From Anaeroplasmataceae bacterium (GTDB lineage: Bacteria > Bacillota_I > Bacilli_A > Acholeplasmatales > Anaeroplasmataceae), in contig JAIDZC010000034.1 of NCBI GenBank assembly GCA_029057785.1, positions 1-38,870 of the forward strand: DNA of 38,870 bases, written 5' to 3'. Within the stretch, counting starts at the first letter, position 1. The number at the start of each line of letters is the position of its first letter. Below the pieces are notes generated by a model. The model was given only the letters and a program-made list of their open reading frames with translations, searched no databases and was not told the origin of the DNA. This document shows, piece by piece, positions 17,379-29,633 of the stretch. A program made the translations under genes and the position numbers.

Positions 17379-17406
17379 CACATAGTATAGTATGGGTGAA
17401 AAGAAA

Positions 17407-17838
17407 GTGAATTATTACAATCCAAATTATAGTACATATGATCAGTATGTCGTTAAGCAAAATGATTCCTTATACACGATTGCTAAAAAATATGGAGTTA
17501 GTGTAGAGGATTTAAAAAACACAAATCATTTGGTATCTAATATGATTTATCCAAACCAAATTTTATTTATTCCTAAAAGACAGGATTATGTTACAAAGTC
17601 AAATGACAGTGTAGAAGGGTTAATCAATAAATACAACTTGAATTTTAAGGATATATCTAATCTAAAGGTTGCACCTAATCAAACGATACCTTTTAGAACA
17701 GATAAGATTCATGTGGTAAGACCTGGTGAAAGTGTAGAGGATATCTTAGCAAGATATCAACTTTCTCCATTAGAATTATTAAAATTAAATGAGGGTAAAT
17801 TCCTTGTTGCAGGAGAGAAAATAATTATTGAAAAATAG
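17407..17838 (+). CDS. LysM-repeat protein
   Basis: About 143 residues made almost wholly of LysM-type units. One is clear at about residues 15-58 (YVVKQNDSLYTIAKKYGVS ... IYPNQILFIPK). A second, divergent, runs from YVTKSNDSVEGLINKYNLN, and a third starts at IHVVRPGESVEDILARYQ. LysM binds N-acetylglucosamine polymers such as peptidoglycan. There is no signal peptide or membrane helix, so how it reaches the wall, or whether it acts inside, is unclear. An in-frame ATG at 17392 would add five residues but has no SD. GGGTGA (17394-17399) is seven bases before this GTG, which I prefer. Transcription may be readthrough from ung. Confidence 0.75.
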   Translation: MNYYNPNYSTYDQYVVKQNDSLYTIAKKYGVSVEDLKNTNHLVSNMIYPNQILFIPKRQDYVTKSNDSVEGLINKYNLNFKDISNLKVAPNQTIPFRTDKIHVVRPGESVEDILARYQLSPLELLKLNEGKFLVAGEKIIIEK

Positions 17839-21929: not shown

Positions 21930-22051
21930 GAGGTTATACTATAGATGTCTTAGAAATAAGACAAACTATCTTTCCCTATTAAGATAGAAGCTTTTTCATA
22001 AGCAAACTATAACTCTCCCAATGGTAAAAGGTCTATATTTGTAGGCCTTTT
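21930..22051 (+). ncRNA. Candidate structured RNA in the ackA-giant gene gap
   Basis: The 322-base gap 21898-22219 holds no gene. In it GAGGTTATA (21930-21938, one bulged G) can pair with TATAACTC (22008-22015). This closes a junction with three hairpins: 21946-21952/21957-21963 with a GAAA loop, 21966-21972/21981-21987, and 21990-21993/22000-22003. The sequence AAACTAT follows the first and the third hairpin. A terminator ends the unit. TATAAT at 21913 (weak TTAAAT at -35) could start a separate small RNA; otherwise this is the ackA 3' untranslated region. I do not recognise a known class. Confidence 0.4.
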
Positions 22052-22062
22052 ATTTCTTTTTT
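22026..22062 (+). terminator. Intrinsic terminator after ackA and the structured element
   Basis: A 10-bp stem with one G-U pair (22026-22035 with 22042-22051), loop TATTTG, tail ATTTCTTTTTT. Confidence 0.85.
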
Positions 22063-22105: not shown

Positions 22106-22152
22106 TGTCAAAAGGGATGACGAAACGCTTTCTTTGTCAAACAAATTTGACA
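22106..22152 (+). promoter_or_regulatory. TGTCAAA repeats at the giant-gene promoter
   Basis: TGTCAAA occurs at 22106-22112 and 22135-22141. Its inverted copy TTTGACA at 22146-22152 makes a palindrome (7+4+7) that contains the -35 box. A good position for an operator; the regulator is unknown. Confidence 0.4.
22120..22133 (+). promoter_or_regulatory. cre-like site upstream of the giant gene
   Basis: ACGAAACGCTTTCT keeps the core AANCGNNNNC of the cre consensus, with mismatches at both ends. It ends 13 bases before the -35. Confidence 0.3.
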
Positions 22153-22175
22153 TTTTTTCTTTTTTTTAGTATAAT
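22147..22175 (+). promoter_or_regulatory. Consensus sigma-A promoter of the giant surface protein gene
   Basis: TTGACA (22147-22152), exactly 17 bases, TATAAT (22170-22175): every base matches consensus. Leader of about 38 bases. Confidence 0.9.
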
Positions 22176-22219: not shown

Positions 22220-25200
22220 ATGAAGAAAAAAATCATATTCTTATCCATTTTCATATTATTATTAGCTATTGGTGGGGTAGGTATTTTTTACTATACTCAA
22301 ACACATCGAAAGGATGTGGTTTTTGCTGATGATACGGAATATAAAACCTATACCGCTCCTGCCCCAAGTGATGGATCATCTCCAGTAGACCACAATTCAT
22401 ACGATAACTTAGCCTATATTTTATGGGTTTTAGAACATACTAAGCAGTACACATCTCTTACGGAAGGTACTGCGGTTTCTGTAGGACAAACTCAAACAAT
22501 TTATAATCATCGAAGAGTAAATGGTGATGAACAGCTTGTAGATACAATTTCAGGAGGCTTAGTTTCTTTAGGTAAACAGAAGTACTTCTTAGATAATAAG
22601 GTTTTAATTAGAGATTATATTTCTAAAAAGGGTGATGACATTCAGTGGAAGACAGAAGAACCAGAATGTATCACAAAGGATACTTATAAAGAAAGATATG
22701 GTTGGCTTCCTACACAAGCTACAGCTTATATCATTTGCAAGGAAACAATTTTAGAGATTACAGAGGTTACTATTTTAGAAAATGGATTATATTCCATCAC
22801 AGTTTCTTTAAACCCAGATGAAGAGCGTGCTCCTTTCTGGTATCAAAGAGAGATTAAAACGAATGCATCCTCTGTAACTAAGCCCGTTTTTTCTTCTATC
22901 ATCATAGAATATATTTTTAATGATGATTGGCAAATTCAGCAAGTAAACACAAAAGAAAAGTATAAGGTTACCCCAAAGGTGGCACCAATCACTGTAGATT
23001 GTGAAACAAATATAAAAGAAACATTTGATTATACAACTTGGGAATTTGATGCTTCTGCAATGGAGTTCTTTAATCAATATAAGGACATGGTACCTGTAGG
23101 AGGTTCAAACTCTGAAGAACCGGATGAACAAACCCCTTTATCTTATATTACGGGTTCCTTACTTGGTGGAAGTAATAAAGAAAAGACTTTTGATGTAACT
23201 ATAAATATCAATGGTCAAACTTTAAAAGGTAAGCTTCTTTTAAATATCTCTAATTTAACAAGTATAATTGTTAAAGTAAGCTTAGGAGATTTACAAGTCG
23301 TTTATGAAAATGATCAGGTTTTTGTAGATTATGGTTCTTTAAAAATTAAATGTAATATAGATGAAATCAGTGAAGTATTACAACCTTTACTTGCAGAGTT
23401 GGTAATGGGGAACTCTACATCTCCTAGTCAAGCAGAAGCTTTTGATTTAAATCAAATTATGAATGATCTAAATCATGCTAAGGTAACGGAAACTGAGGAT
23501 AGTGTGAACTTGGACTTGTCTTTGAATTTGATGGGATTTAATTTACCTCTAATTTTTGATATCACTAAAAATGGAGATAAACTGGATTTACAGTCTATCA
23601 AATCTAATTTATCAATAGAAGGAACAGAAGTTCAAATCAGCATTGATAAAAATGAAACTGTAGAATTTAGTCCTATAGAGGGTGAGTATAGCGATTTGAA
23701 GGATATCGATTTCATTATTAAAGATGTAACAAGTATTTTGAAAAACAAAAAATTAAGTGCATCTTTTAGCTTTACTTATGATGACTATCGTATTTTAGGT
23801 ACTGCCAAAATAGGATTGAATAAAAATGATCCTATTCAATTGGATTTGACTTTAGAGAATACAAAACTAGGATTAAATGAATCCTTCTTACTCATTTATG
23901 ATTCTAATATTTTCTATGTAAATTATAAGAATCTTAAATTGAAATTATCTTCTTTAGAATTAATGGAATTTATAAATCAATATGTTCCTATCCAAAAGGA
24001 GATGCCTAAGTTTGATCTTGCGGAAACTTTAAAGATAATTTCTAGCATTGATTTTAAAACCATTCTTCAAAAATTTACAATAGACCATGAAGAAGTATTT
24101 GTTTCTCTAAATTTATCTGCTTTAGCAGAAGAGCTTTCAGTTCTTAATTTGACAGTTTCTGATACAGAAGAAGGATTTAGTTTGAATACAAATCTTTATA
24201 ATATTGAAATCAATTTAGATGCTACAACAGATTTTTCAATGGAATATGATAGTACAAGCTATGTGGATATGAGTGCATATTTAGACTTGATAGACTATAT
24301 TACTAAAACCATTGGAAAAGAATCTCTAGGTGTTCATATTGATGGTGCTTTAGCTTATAAGACATATACGATAAATGTATTTGGAGATATAAACTTATAT
24401 CTCAAGGATAACTCTTATAATGTTGATAGTAAAATATTCGTTACTTATTTAGGACAACAAATAGAGATAGAAATGAGAATTCTTGATAAGGATATTTATA
24501 TCAGTGTATCCGATTATACGATTAAGATTAACCTAGATACAATTTCTTCAACCATAGAAGAAATTACAAGAAAGCTTGGAGTTGATCTTCCAAAAATGGA
24601 GACTCCACAAATCGCTTTAGATGATATTCTTAAATTATTAAGTACACTACAACTAAATTCCTCATCTTTAGAAATAGATCTTAGTTCAATAGTAGAGATG
24701 ATTGGAGTCCTAGGAGTCAGCTTTAGTTTAGATGCTTCCACATTAAACCTTGAATTGAAGAGTAATTTAATTCAGTTAAATACCACTGTTACACCAATTG
24801 AATATAAAGAGATTGAGACACCAACTCAATACTATGATGAGAAAGATATTTTAAGCTTAATGAATTATGTTGAAGATGTTATGAAGCTTGTAAATAATAA
24901 GTATGGTTATGTTGAGTTTGGTGGCTGCTATGAAGGTATTGAAGTTATAGGAAATTTATATATAGACTGGCAGGATACTCTTCAGGCTAAAGGAAATATT
25001 TCAGTAGTTTATGAAGGACAAACTCTATCATTTGAAGTTATCTATATTGATGAAACGATATATGTTTCTTATGAGGGAATTAAGGTTAAGTTAAATAAAA
25101 CCACTTTAACAAGCTTGACAAATGATAAGTTACCATCCTTACCACCAATTGAGATAGAAGAAATCCTAACGAAAGTAAAAGATGTAGTCAAGGAGATTTC

Positions 25201-28200
25201 TATTATAGAGGGTAAGGTAAGTTTAGGCTTGAATTTAGGTGTCTTAATAGCTGGAATGACAGAAACTGAATTTGTATTGACAGATACAAAGGAAGGTTTC
25301 AATCTTACTTCAACAGAATATGATATTCGCTTAAGCTTAGATGTCACAAAGACAGAAAAGATAGAAGTGAATGATGAGGAATATTCTTCTATAGAAGGAT
25401 ATAAGAATTTGGTTGAATACTTAGTCTCTATTATTAATAAAGAGTCTTTAGGAGTTCACATTGAGGGAACTTCCTGTGTTGATGCTGTGGCAATAGTATT
25501 TACTGGGGATTTGGATTTGATGTATAATCCAAGTACTTCTAAGTATGATATATCTATGCTTTTAAATGTTATTGTATCTAATATAACAGCTCAGGTACAA
25601 TTCACCTATGTAGAAGACAAATTATATATAGGATTGTATGATACTGTTATAGAGCTTTCTACAAATGAAATTAAAGAGATTGTTTCTATTGTTTGTGAGA
25701 AATTCAATATATCCTTAGACCAAACAGATGCTACCTTATCTGTAGATAGCATTGTGAATTTTATAAAGAGAATCCATTTGTTAGATGATTCTATTGAATT
25801 TGATTTAAGCCAATATGTTTCATTCTTCACACAACTTGTGTTTGCTTATACAAAATTAGATAGTGGATATGAATTTAGGATAAATCAAGATTCTATGTTA
25901 GATGTTACATTTACTCTTTCTGCAATTCCTTATAAAGAGATTCGTACTCCACAGGCAACATTAGATAAAGAAGATTTAATAGTTTTATTAGATAATATTT
26001 CTTATGTATTAGAACTGGTAAAGGGAAATGTAATTCATTTTGAAATATCAGATGCTTTACTAGATATTACATTGAACAATCATGTGGAAAGTATTTCTGT
26101 AAATGGTTCTATTGATTTGTTATGGAATGAAGAAGGATACCAGGTTACAGGAAGCTTATTGGCAGAAGGTGCTGGTATACTTGCACAAATTAGTATAGTC
26201 GTTGTGGATAATACAATTTATTTAACAATATCTAATCAGACCATCTCTTTAAAGCTAAATGAAATAGAAGATTTTATTGCAGAAGCAATAGAAATCTTAT
26301 CTCCTATAGTAAGTATAGATATGCCTAGTATGGATAGGAATTGCTTTGAATTAGATTTAAGAGATTTAGGATTAATGCTAACAAATAACTCTATAGGAGC
26401 TTCCTTAGAAGCGTTTGTTGGTAAGGTGTGTACACTTTTAGTATCCTTCAATTTAGTTGATACTGGATTGAACACTCAAATCAATGTATCTTATAATGAA
26501 CTTATTCAATTAGAAGCACCTATCTTGATTTCTGCTAATGAGGTCGAAGAAATTCATATTCCTTCTAATGTACTGACAAAGGATGACCTGTTAGAGATAT
26601 TAACCTATGCTGTTGAAGTATATGAGTTATCTTTAAGAGATGAATTTAATCTATCCATTTCTACATCCATTCATACAAATGGAGAAGTCGTTGCAACTAT
26701 AGAAGGAAATGTTTATATTAAGCTTCTTGAAAATCAAGAATTTGATGCACGTTTAAGTCTTATTGTTTACGAATATAAAGAAAATACTCAGGTGGGATGG
26801 CATCAATTGGATGTTCAAGTGATTTCTTTAACAACAATGAACACTTTAGATCCAAGTGTAGGTATGGCAATGTTCTATGCTATTTATGGTAATAACCCTG
26901 ATGATTTAAATGCAGTAATCAAGGTTAAGTCTACCTATAAAGGAATAGAGGATTTAATCAATACAATTTTGCAGTTAATGAATCTCGATATTCCTAGTTT
27001 GTCCTCTACATCTCACACTTCCTCTATGGATATTCGTTCTCTAATTGAGTATATCTATGTAGAAAAGAATAGTCTATCCTTAGGTATAGAAGCTAATTTC
27101 TTATTTGCTTCTATGTTAGATGAAAGGCAAGTAATGCAAATTACATTAACTAAGAACCAAGATTCTAAGTTGATTGGTATTTTTGCAGATAATATTTATG
27201 TATCTTATACAAATACGATGAAGTATACTAAGCTAGATGCGTTAGAAGTGACATTTGAAGAAGGACAAATGGAATTTGATGTTCCTTCAGCTGAGGCTCT
27301 TCAACAATATTATGATATTTCAGAAATATCTAATTTATTTGAAGCATTATATCATAATGCCTTAGAAAGAACATTCTCTATATCTGGAAATCTTGTATTA
27401 AAGGCTAAAGTCTTATTTACAATAACAGAATCTATTCCAGTGAAAATTAAAGTAGGAGTAGAAGAGAACGGAGAACCTACAGTTCATGTCCACATTGATA
27501 TGAATAACTTAAAGGCTGGTGCCCTACTTGCTTCTAAGAAGACAGTAGACGTATATTATTATAAAAATTATGTCTATATCCAAAGAACTGAAAGTAGTTC
27601 GGTGAAGAGAGTTAAGGTTCATATTAATGAATTTATGGATAATCTTGTTTATTATTTATTAGATTTTGGAATGGGCTTAAGTGATACGATTTTAAATGCT
27701 ATCGAAAAACCTGTAGAGGGTGATGGCTTTGTTGATGCAGCTAAATGTATTAATTCTATCAGCATTCAAAAGAATACCTTTGAATTTGGTATCAATATGG
27801 GTGAATTAACAGATAACTTTAACTTAGAAGATTTATTTATTAGCTTAGGCACCTCTATGGTATATCAAAAGAATTCTGATGGTACGATGTCTTTAGTCCC
27901 AATGATTCATAGAATTAACAGCTTTGAATTTAAGATGGTAAAGGTAATTACTTTATCAAGTACGGATTTAGTATTAGACAATATTGATGAAACGGGCACC
28001 TATAATAGAGTAGACATATCCTTTATTGAATCCTTTACTGAGGAATATAATCAAGAGTTAGACAATGAAGGCAATGTTCTTCAAAGTGACACTATCTATG
28101 AACTGAAAAATGGAGTTTGGGTGAAGGTTAATGCTATTGAGCATAAGGTAACCTTTGATTTGGCAACAACCAACACAAAGCTTGAAAATCAAACTGTAGC

Positions 28201-29596
28201 TTATGCAAAGGATGATGTAATCCTTCCACCAAGCTTAGATGAACTTCTTGAAGTAACTCTAGAAGATGGAACAGTTAAATACTATGAATTTAAAGGCTGG
28301 TATTTAGATGCTTCTTACTTAACCTTAGCTAGTGAAGAAGACTGGATAATGCAGGATAAGAATAGAACCTTCTATGCAAAATATCAGGATATCACTTCAA
28401 CTGTAACGATTGAATCTCCTTATCATGAAGATATTATCTTAACTTCCTACATAGGTTTTGATATCAGCAATTATTTAAGCTTGTATGACTTGACTTCAGT
28501 TGATGGCAAAATGTATCGTTTTGAAGGATTCTCCTATGAATATGATACTATCCTTGAAAAAGAAGTTGTCTTAGAAACCATTTGGAACGAAGTTCAATTC
28601 TATTTAATAGATAATCAAAATAGGTATCTATTATCTACTGAAGATAGTTCTAGCTTCTTAAATAATACCTATTATGTTCCAACAAGTGTAAATCTTGGAA
28701 GTAGTACTTCAACGATATATTATGGATATCCAGGCGCTATATTAACACCAAGCTATATCTTGAATATGTTTAGTTCATCATTCGTTTACAATGAAGCTAC
28801 TAATCATTTAGAATTAGAGATATTCCAAACTATCTCTGATGCATATGTTTCTACATTAATAGATGATAGTTTAAGTATTATGGGGTACATCCCTTCTAGT
28901 CAAATAGAAACCAAAGGTATTTCTCTTGAACAGTTTGCAGACTATGAAATAAATGCTTGGGTAGATTCTTATGGAAACTATTATAGTTGGTTTGATATCT
29001 TAGCTAAATCAAATCAAAATGTATCCTATACAGATTTCTATATCTCAACTCCTCAAAAGGCTTTGGCATTTGAGATGAATGATACAGCTAAGATAACAGG
29101 CTTTACATTTGATACTACAGTTACAACACTAATCACACCTAGATATGTTTACCATGACAGTAAGGCTGTCTTAGTCACTGTAATAGGTGCAAGTGCCTTC
29201 TTTGGTGCAGAAGAAACAGGTAGCATTTTCAATAAGAAGACAGTTTACCATCATAAATTAGAAACGATAATTCTTCATGAAGGATTAGTTGAAATTGATG
29301 CCGATGCATTTAAGAATAGTATAACCTTAAAGGCAGTATATCTACCTAGTACACTTGAAAGTGTTGCAGAAGAGGCATTCTTTATGAATGTGACTAGCAA
29401 GGCAGAGACAAATCAAGGCTATGCAAGCAATGTGAAATTCTATGTACTTCCAGGATCTACTATAAATGTAGGAAACTGGCATGCATACAAGTGGAACACA
29501 ATTAAGTATAATTACAATAGTAATAAGGTTTCTAATTCTAGTGTAGAAGCCTCAAGAACTATCGTTGAAAGTGTTTATGATGTGCTTTCTAACTAA
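22220..29596 (+). CDS. Giant repeat-containing surface protein, 2458 residues
   Basis: One N-terminal membrane helix (about 5-26) after MKKK, with no lipobox; probably an uncleaved anchor or signal peptide. Residues about 45-280 form a unique beta-rich domain. About eight diverged repeats then start near 283, 490, 684, 873, 1058, 1250, 1453 and 1692. Each begins with a helix (like LVEYLVSIINKESLGVHIEG), continues as alternating polar/hydrophobic strands with IYVSYEGIKVKL-type turns, then a second helix-strand half ending in PIEYKEI.TP-like text. An InlB/Listeria-Bacteroides-type repeat lies at about 1974-2056 (EFKGWYLDASY), a degenerate copy to about 2135, and an LRR_5/BspA-like segment at about 2320-2395. 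No LPxTG anchor. Function unknown; the repeats recall LolA/LppX-type lipid-binding sheets (inference). AAAGGAAG is the SD. Confidence 0.85.
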   Translation: MKKKIIFLSIFILLLAIGGVGIFYYTQTHRKDVVFADDTEYKTYTAPAPSDGSSPVDHNSYDNLAYILWVLEHTKQYTSLTEGTAVSVGQTQTIYNHRRVNGDEQLVDTISGGLVSLGKQKYFLDNKVLIRDYISKKGDDIQWKTEEPECITKDTYKERYGWLPTQATAYIICKETILEITEVTILENGLYSITVSLNPDEERAPFWYQREIKTNASSVTKPVFSSIIIEYIFNDDWQIQQVNTKEKYKVTPKVAPITVDCETNIKETFDYTTWEFDASAMEFFNQYKDMVPVGGSNSEEPDEQTPLSYITGSLLGGSNKEKTFDVTININGQTLKGKLLLNISNLTSIIVKVSLGDLQVVYENDQVFVDYGSLKIKCNIDEISEVLQPLLAELVMGNSTSPSQAEAFDLNQIMNDLNHAKVTETEDSVNLDLSLNLMGFNLPLIFDITKNGDKLDLQSIKSNLSIEGTEVQISIDKNETVEFSPIEGEYSDLKDIDFIIKDVTSILKNKKLSASFSFTYDDYRILGTAKIGLNKNDPIQLDLTLENTKLGLNESFLLIYDSNIFYVNYKNLKLKLSSLELMEFINQYVPIQKEMPKFDLAETLKIISSIDFKTILQKFTIDHEEVFVSLNLSALAEELSVLNLTVSDTEEGFSLNTNLYNIEINLDATTDFSMEYDSTSYVDMSAYLDLIDYITKTIGKESLGVHIDGALAYKTYTINVFGDINLYLKDNSYNVDSKIFVTYLGQQIEIEMRILDKDIYISVSDYTIKINLDTISSTIEEITRKLGVDLPKMETPQIALDDILKLLSTLQLNSSSLEIDLSSIVEMIGVLGVSFSLDASTLNLELKSNLIQLNTTVTPIEYKEIETPTQYYDEKDILSLMNYVEDVMKLVNNKYGYVEFGGCYEGIEVIGNLYIDWQDTLQAKGNISVVYEGQTLSFEVIYIDETIYVSYEGIKVKLNKTTLTSLTNDKLPSLPPIEIEEILTKVKDVVKEISIIEGKVSLGLNLGVLIAGMTETEFVLTDTKEGFNLTSTEYDIRLSLDVTKTEKIEVNDEEYSSIEGYKNLVEYLVSIINKESLGVHIEGTSCVDAVAIVFTGDLDLMYNPSTSKYDISMLLNVIVSNITAQVQFTYVEDKLYIGLYDTVIELSTNEIKEIVSIVCEKFNISLDQTDATLSVDSIVNFIKRIHLLDDSIEFDLSQYVSFFTQLVFAYTKLDSGYEFRINQDSMLDVTFTLSAIPYKEIRTPQATLDKEDLIVLLDNISYVLELVKGNVIHFEISDALLDITLNNHVESISVNGSIDLLWNEEGYQVTGSLLAEGAGILAQISIVVVDNTIYLTISNQTISLKLNEIEDFIAEAIEILSPIVSIDMPSMDRNCFELDLRDLGLMLTNNSIGASLEAFVGKVCTLLVSFNLVDTGLNTQINVSYNELIQLEAPILISANEVEEIHIPSNVLTKDDLLEILTYAVEVYELSLRDEFNLSISTSIHTNGEVVATIEGNVYIKLLENQEFDARLSLIVYEYKENTQVGWHQLDVQVISLTTMNTLDPSVGMAMFYAIYGNNPDDLNAVIKVKSTYKGIEDLINTILQLMNLDIPSLSSTSHTSSMDIRSLIEYIYVEKNSLSLGIEANFLFASMLDERQVMQITLTKNQDSKLIGIFADNIYVSYTNTMKYTKLDALEVTFEEGQMEFDVPSAEALQQYYDISEISNLFEALYHNALERTFSISGNLVLKAKVLFTITESIPVKIKVGVEENGEPTVHVHIDMNNLKAGALLASKKTVDVYYYKNYVYIQRTESSSVKRVKVHINEFMDNLVYYLLDFGMGLSDTILNAIEKPVEGDGFVDAAKCINSISIQKNTFEFGINMGELTDNFNLEDLFISLGTSMVYQKNSDGTMSLVPMIHRINSFEFKMVKVITLSSTDLVLDNIDETGTYNRVDISFIESFTEEYNQELDNEGNVLQSDTIYELKNGVWVKVNAIEHKVTFDLATTNTKLENQTVAYAKDDVILPPSLDELLEVTLEDGTVKYYEFKGWYLDASYLTLASEEDWIMQDKNRTFYAKYQDITSTVTIESPYHEDIILTSYIGFDISNYLSLYDLTSVDGKMYRFEGFSYEYDTILEKEVVLETIWNEVQFYLIDNQNRYLLSTEDSSSFLNNTYYVPTSVNLGSSTSTIYYGYPGAILTPSYILNMFSSSFVYNEATNHLELEIFQTISDAYVSTLIDDSLSIMGYIPSSQIETKGISLEQFADYEINAWVDSYGNYYSWFDILAKSNQNVSYTDFYISTPQKALAFEMNDTAKITGFTFDTTVTTLITPRYVYHDSKAVLVTVIGASAFFGAEETGSIFNKKTVYHHKLETIILHEGLVEIDADAFKNSITLKAVYLPSTLESVAEEAFFMNVTSKAETNQGYASNVKFYVLPGSTINVGNWHAYKWNTIKYNYNSNKVSNSSVEASRTIVESVYDVLSN

Positions 29597-29603
29597 AAAA
29601 TAT

Positions 29604-29633
29604 AAAAGATGCATCGAAAGGTGCATCTTTTTG
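29604..29633 (+). terminator. Intrinsic terminator of the giant gene, GAAA loop
   Basis: A 12-bp stem with one G-U pair (29604-29615 with 29620-29631) closed by GAAA and running into TTTTT. Confidence 0.9.

Follow-up and report, generated by a model that had tools for sequence, protein, structure and literature searches.

What does a 2458-residue repeat protein do at the surface of an uncultured member of the Anaeroplasmataceae? The question is raised by one gene in a 38,870-nt stretch of genomic DNA (contig JAIDZC010000034.1; hereafter, the window), taken from a genome of 1.76 Mb that is 97.7% complete. The initial annotation had described the product as a 2458-residue protein with about eight very diverged repeats, and the open reading frame does have exactly that length (Table 1). 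It had also pointed to a perfect promoter, and the 12/12 match upstream of the gene proved to be the sole exact sigma-70-type TTGACA-17-TATAAT sequence in the window; most orthologues carry an 11/12 to 12/12 version of it. With its own promoter and a hairpin on either side, the gene looks like a single-gene transcription unit. Of the named records, the nearest are a MAG of an uncultured Mollicutes bacterium, at 82% protein identity, and an Anaeroplasmataceae MAG, at 88%. Gene order around the locus is constant throughout the genus and in several relatives, and the neighbors in the window, with ackA on the upstream side and an HD-domain gene, trmFO, xerC, rpsB, and tsf on the downstream side, are housekeeping genes that gave no lead to function.

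Table 1. Features of the array gene, its flanks, and its product
Feature	Position	Strand	Basis
Terminator-like hairpin, ackA/array gene interval	22023..22054	+	Sequence
Promoter TTGACA-17-TATAAT, 12/12 consensus	22147..22175	+	Sequence; kept upstream of most orthologues
Array protein ORF, 2458 aa	22220..29596	+	ORF translation
N-terminal hydrophobic anchor, residues 5-26, without lipobox Cys	22232..22297	+	Sequence
N-domain, residues 57-285, predicted LppX/LprG-like fold, most conserved part	22388..23074	+	Predicted structure, fold search (LppX Z 12.2)
Repeat 1, residues 307-496, positional "first" class	23138..23707	+	Profile; LolA Z up to 9.8; tree
Repeat 2, residues 488-706	23681..24337	+	Profile
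Repeat 3, residues 704-873	24329..24838	+	Profile
Repeat 4, residues 870-1080, modeled alone, pLDDT 90.9	24827..25459	+	Profile, structure model
Repeat 5, residues 1078-1248	25451..25963	+	Profile
Repeat 6, residues 1247-1453	25958..26578	+	Profile
Repeat 7, residues 1450-1684, positional "penultimate" class	26567..27271	+	Profile, tree
Repeat 8, residues 1695-1934, conserved terminal class "Z"	27302..28021	+	Profile, tree
List_Bact_rpt-like segment, residues 1976-2054, under family cutoff	28145..28381	+	Pfam scan
BspA-type LRR_5 segment, residues 2338-2395	29231..29404	+	Pfam scan
Terminator-like hairpin 3' of array gene	29604..29631	+	Sequence

An iterated profile seeded with residues 869-1080 recognized eight repeats of ~170 to 240 aa in the protein, each with E<1e-19, and over the whole 1.76-Mb genome it matched at these eight places only. 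The copies are as diverged as had been claimed, with a median pairwise identity of 15% (range, 11 to 26%), and no DNA-level tandem repeat remains in the gene. Scans of the whole protein against Pfam and NCBIfam returned no repeat family, the weak matches to SspH, DUF3242, and others being scattered and below the cutoffs, and no Pfam family recurred consistently over 149 repeat copies; at the level of sequence, neither the repeat nor the N-domain is covered by any Pfam family. The anchor at one end and the leucine-rich repeats at the other, both proposed in the initial annotation, were recovered, the latter as a weak tail confined to the last fifth of the protein. Its LRR_5 match, one short segment, scored 28.0 bits (cutoff, 27.7) when the tail was scanned alone and fell under the cutoff in the scan of the whole protein, and its List_Bact_rpt match scored 24.2 bits (cutoff, 27). 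A sortase-anchored wall protein, also considered, is not supported: no sortase was found in the genome and inspection of the C terminus revealed neither an LPXTG motif nor a hydrophobic stretch.

The repeats had been guessed to resemble LolA/LppX half-barrels, and structural modeling and fold searches of the kind that had been proposed as a check agreed with this guess. Modeled alone with AlphaFold2, repeat 4 gave a mean pLDDT of 90.9 and a pTM of 0.81; the chain runs from one helix through six strands and two helices to a final five strands (alpha-beta6-alpha-alpha-beta5). Its best match in the PDB was LprG (Foldseek E of 5.4e-7, probability of 1.00; Z of 10.0), followed by LprF, LppX, LolA, RseB, LolB, EPDR1, and VioE. 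Across the fold searches, the LolA/LppX superfamily accounts for almost all of the 50 best PDB rows. A three-domain model of residues 25-712 (pLDDT, 82.7; pTM, 0.61) set the N-domain (~residues 57-285) apart from the repeats; it matched LppX (Z of 12.2), and repeat 1 matched LolA (Z up to 9.8), many of the Z values being middling, so that the fold assignment rests on consistent coverage of whole domains and on the Foldseek probabilities, which reach 1.00 for LprG, LolA, and LppX. To the extent that a good model can decide, an unrelated fold, named at the outset as a refuting result, is excluded. Membership of both the repeats and the N-domain in the superfamily, as ~11-stranded half-barrels with helices on the concave side, is thus well supported by the predicted structures, as is a count of nine such domains in the protein, the eight repeats being joined by an N-domain that the initial annotation had not counted.

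This likeness did not extend to sequence. Pfam family LppX_LprAFG (PF07161) scored 10.4 bits against a cutoff of 24 (E of 0.58), which gives no sequence-level membership; no relation of the repeats or the N-domain to the Pfam LolA or LppX families was detectable, and a sequence-profile search against the PDB gave nothing significant. Profile-profile comparison of the N-domain with the repeat likewise detected no relation, doing no better than a reversed control, and we therefore treat the two as families joined by fold only. Within the repeats, one face of the strands is on average 81% hydrophobic and the other 21%; all of the 149 copies (149/149) agree in sign, and the difference lies beyond all 5,000 permutations. 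This pattern in the sequence would fit a lipid cradle, but it is to be expected of packed sheets in general.

The repeat profile was also run against other genomes, another of the checks suggested at the outset, and it found the repeat in 50 of 395 genomes sampled across the class, whereas a phylum-wide sample added no repeat-bearing genome outside the class. Among the 150 nearest genomes, 44 encode the protein or its N-domain. Relatives have from ~4 to 20 repeats, and the longest array seen has 18 to 20 in a homologue of 4628 aa (L049, genome G012). Three states were found. In the Anaeroplasmataceae and some other groups, the anchor, N-domain, and array are fused, with or without a tail. In each of the 14 loci examined in more distantly related families of Bacilli, the N-domain and the array are encoded by adjacent separate genes, an N-domain gene of ~300 to 345 aa being followed directly by an array gene of ~950 to 1000 aa with three or four recognized repeats; both products have an anchor or lipobox of their own. 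In four close relatives (G015, G031, G044, and G048), the N-domain gene lies directly after ackA with no array, and in G015 no repeat was found genome-wide; the stand-alone relative in G048 (L116) has a lipobox instead of an anchor. Since the N-domain occurs alone at the ackA locus in these four genomes and fused to or beside the array elsewhere, we take it to be the core of the system and the array to be a coupled extension, a coupling that is well supported.

A divergent HTH_3 gene with membrane helices adjoins the split pairs and was found only beside split forms. It was present at every split pair examined (L093-L099, L102-L105, and L108-L110), with the HTH_3 domain N-terminal and the hydrophobic stretches C-terminal, and it is possibly a membrane-sensing regulator.

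How the genus obtains its lipids bears on what such a protein might do. Neither FabF nor FabH was found in this genome or in any of the 11 genomes that represent the genus, whereas control genomes were positive, so that on gene content the genus is apparently auxotrophic for fatty acids. The window's genome has six DegV/FakB-like matches and one Dak2/FakA-like match, and use of exogenous fatty acids looks possible. Because FabF and FabH are missing and FakA- and FakB-like genes are present, we favor a lipid-capturing surface array. Of 30 relatives with an array or N-domain, 2 have FASII, compared with 17 of 30 others (p of 5e-5), a difference confounded by ancestry; inside the family the association is not significant (p of 0.09, or 0.28 without the window's genus), and relatives such as G016 and G030 have neither FASII nor an array. 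Such data make it reasonable to propose lipid capture but do not amount to proof. Proteins of ~800 aa with two ketoacyl-synthase matches, unlike a normal FabF, are encoded in G015, G018, G021, G022, G025, G029, G031, and G033.

The explanation that we prefer, tentatively, is that the nine LolA/LppX-fold domains, strung together outside the cell on a membrane anchor, handle or capture lipids at the cell surface. We infer lipid binding, its substrate, the direction of transfer, and hand-over between domains as follows. The amphipathic half-barrels would gather acyl chains or sterols from the gut around the cell, with the conserved terminal domain and any tail contacting the lipid source. The array would store these lipids or pass them along to the LppX-like N-domain at the membrane, which would release them into the bilayer, and the FakA/FakB route could then use them. 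This proposal draws support from the LprG/LppX/LolA fold, from the coupling of N-domain and array, and from the lipobox of L116, as in LppX and LprG; it is weakened by the generality of the hydrophobic face, by the confounding of the FASII association, and by the other functions that LolA-fold proteins can have, as the enzyme VioE shows (PMC6363788). Its fuller form, which we consider rather doubtful, is that lipid-scavenging surface arrays constitute a previously undescribed class in fatty-acid-auxotrophic gut Bacilli, in which an LppX-like membrane-proximal unloader is coupled, by fusion or as a neighboring gene, to a LolA-type chain of variable length with a conserved distal domain, lipids being passed or stored domain by domain.

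The way in which the arrays have evolved complicates this choice. The 20 fused arrays contributed 164 repeats to a tree in which the last repeats formed one clade (20/20; support, 0.99), as did most penultimate repeats (18/20; support, 0.998) and most first repeats (18/20; support, 0.97), whereas for 46 of 84 middle repeats the nearest relative was another copy from that genome. Distant split arrays also end with a domain of the terminal class, scoring 92 to 124 bits in most of them (more weakly in L104, L105, L109, and L099) versus ~6 bits or less for other classes. G007 (L037) has two copies of a two-repeat block of 1127 bp that are 99.9% identical in DNA sequence, which marks a recent expansion of the middle. 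From the position-specific end clades, the within-genome relatives of middle copies, and the G007 duplication, we concluded that the ends are fixed and the middle is variable, a conclusion that is well supported. The initial annotation had called the array old, which holds for the array as a whole, with split homologues across the class, but not for the middle copies, which turn over recently.

Fixed ends and a variable middle are also the pattern of a length-variable surface stalk, which weakens the case for lipid handling. Here a LolA-type fold would have been reused as a spacer for the terminal domain, with or without a List_Bact/LRR_5 adhesive tail, lipid binding by the repeats having been lost or being irrelevant. 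The three positional clades, the kinship of middle repeats within genomes, the range in repeat number together with the near-perfect G007 duplication, and the adhesin-type tail of the window's genus and several others all argue for such a stalk. However, six relatives (G011, G013, G019, G029, G055, and G059) have no tail to display, their proteins ending no more than ~15 residues past the last repeat, the split four-domain arrays also lack a C-terminal tail, and the N-domain persists without any array. We rank a stalk close behind lipid capture, as nearly as likely. The adhesin suggested initially suits only the subset with a C-terminal tail and not the many relatives that end at the last repeat.

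A wall-spanning bridge had also been suggested. A published survey found peptidoglycan genes in 40 to 60% of Anaeroplasmataceae genomes (PMC10868615), and penicillin-binding transpeptidases and an MraY-type gene are encoded in the window's genome, in agreement with a small protein with two LysM domains encoded at positions 17392-17838 of the window. Many array-bearing relatives, however, have neither wall gene, and repeat number does not differ with wall genes (medians of 8 and 7.5). Because the arrays are no shorter or longer where wall genes are missing, the idea that the protein spans the wall is not supported. This result also counts against a bridge-like conduit, as in RBG proteins or LetB, in which aligned half-barrels would form a continuous hydrophobic groove for lipid to slide outward or inward. 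Every repeat does have a hydrophobic inner face, consecutive repeats are joined, last strand to first helix, by short linkers in the models, and one end is anchored in the membrane. Yet each repeat has its own helices, which in the models lie between the sheets of neighboring domains, suggesting separate pockets, and there is no known second membrane to reach, the lineage being monoderm (PMC10868615). We regard a conduit as improbable.

Still less probable is an LprG-like route for exporting or displaying a lipoglycan or lipoprotein at the surface: LprG, LppX, and LolA are the closest folds, and the cargo of LprG includes acylated lipids and lipoglycans (PMC4214796, PMC4709180), but no conserved transporter or glycolipid gene lies beside the array gene or its split homologues. 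Binding of a non-lipid ligand (bile acid, peptide, or dye) is very improbable, since although LolA-fold proteins can serve other functions and ligands, as in the enzyme VioE (PMC6363788), there is no specific evidence for any such ligand here.

The protein can be compared with known systems. LolA/LppX-fold carriers are known as single-domain shuttles. The mycobacterial lipoproteins LprG, LppX, and LprF share the predicted fold of repeat and N-domain, are likewise anchored outside the cytoplasmic membrane, and resemble the stand-alone N-domains, one of which has a lipobox; they differ in being single-domain proteins with no detectable sequence relation, and no Rv1410-like partner lies beside the array gene. 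LolA and LolB share the fold of the repeats, but LolA is soluble, single-domain, and acts between two membranes, whereas the array is anchored and concatenated in a lineage without a known outer membrane. RseB/MucB has one LolA-type large domain plus a small domain, for periplasmic stress sensing, and no tandem array. MCE arrays of the LetB/PqiB type and RBG bridge proteins are membrane-anchored chains of repeated lipid-contact domains in variable number; the array would be such a chain too, but its domain differs, no second membrane is known, and the whole-protein Pfam scan found no MCE family at E 1. Surface proteins with BspA-type LRR and List_Bact_rpt modules resemble the C-terminal tail, which many array homologues lack. 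P116 of Mycoplasma pneumoniae, a relative dependent on outside lipids, is a precedent for the proposed role as a surface lipid extractor; it forms a homodimer, has a different fold of its own, and contains a single huge cavity (PMC10023570).

A limited open-access search found no paper on tandem LolA-fold arrays, and a protein of nine LolA/LppX-fold domains (up to ~20 in a relative), widespread in uncultured gut Bacilli, walled and wall-less, is a new architecture. If its domains bind lipid, it would suggest an answer to how bacteria apparently without fatty acid synthesis get membrane lipids; if it is a stalk only, it is a case of a carrier fold that became a surface spacer of variable length. 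In both cases, two unnamed families, the N-domain and the repeat, acquire testable predictions. Elsewhere in the window's genome, C32 (L055-L057) has a 10,680-aa open frame that shows LRR_5-type similarity, and after it come further ORFs of >2500 aa that resemble surface proteins.
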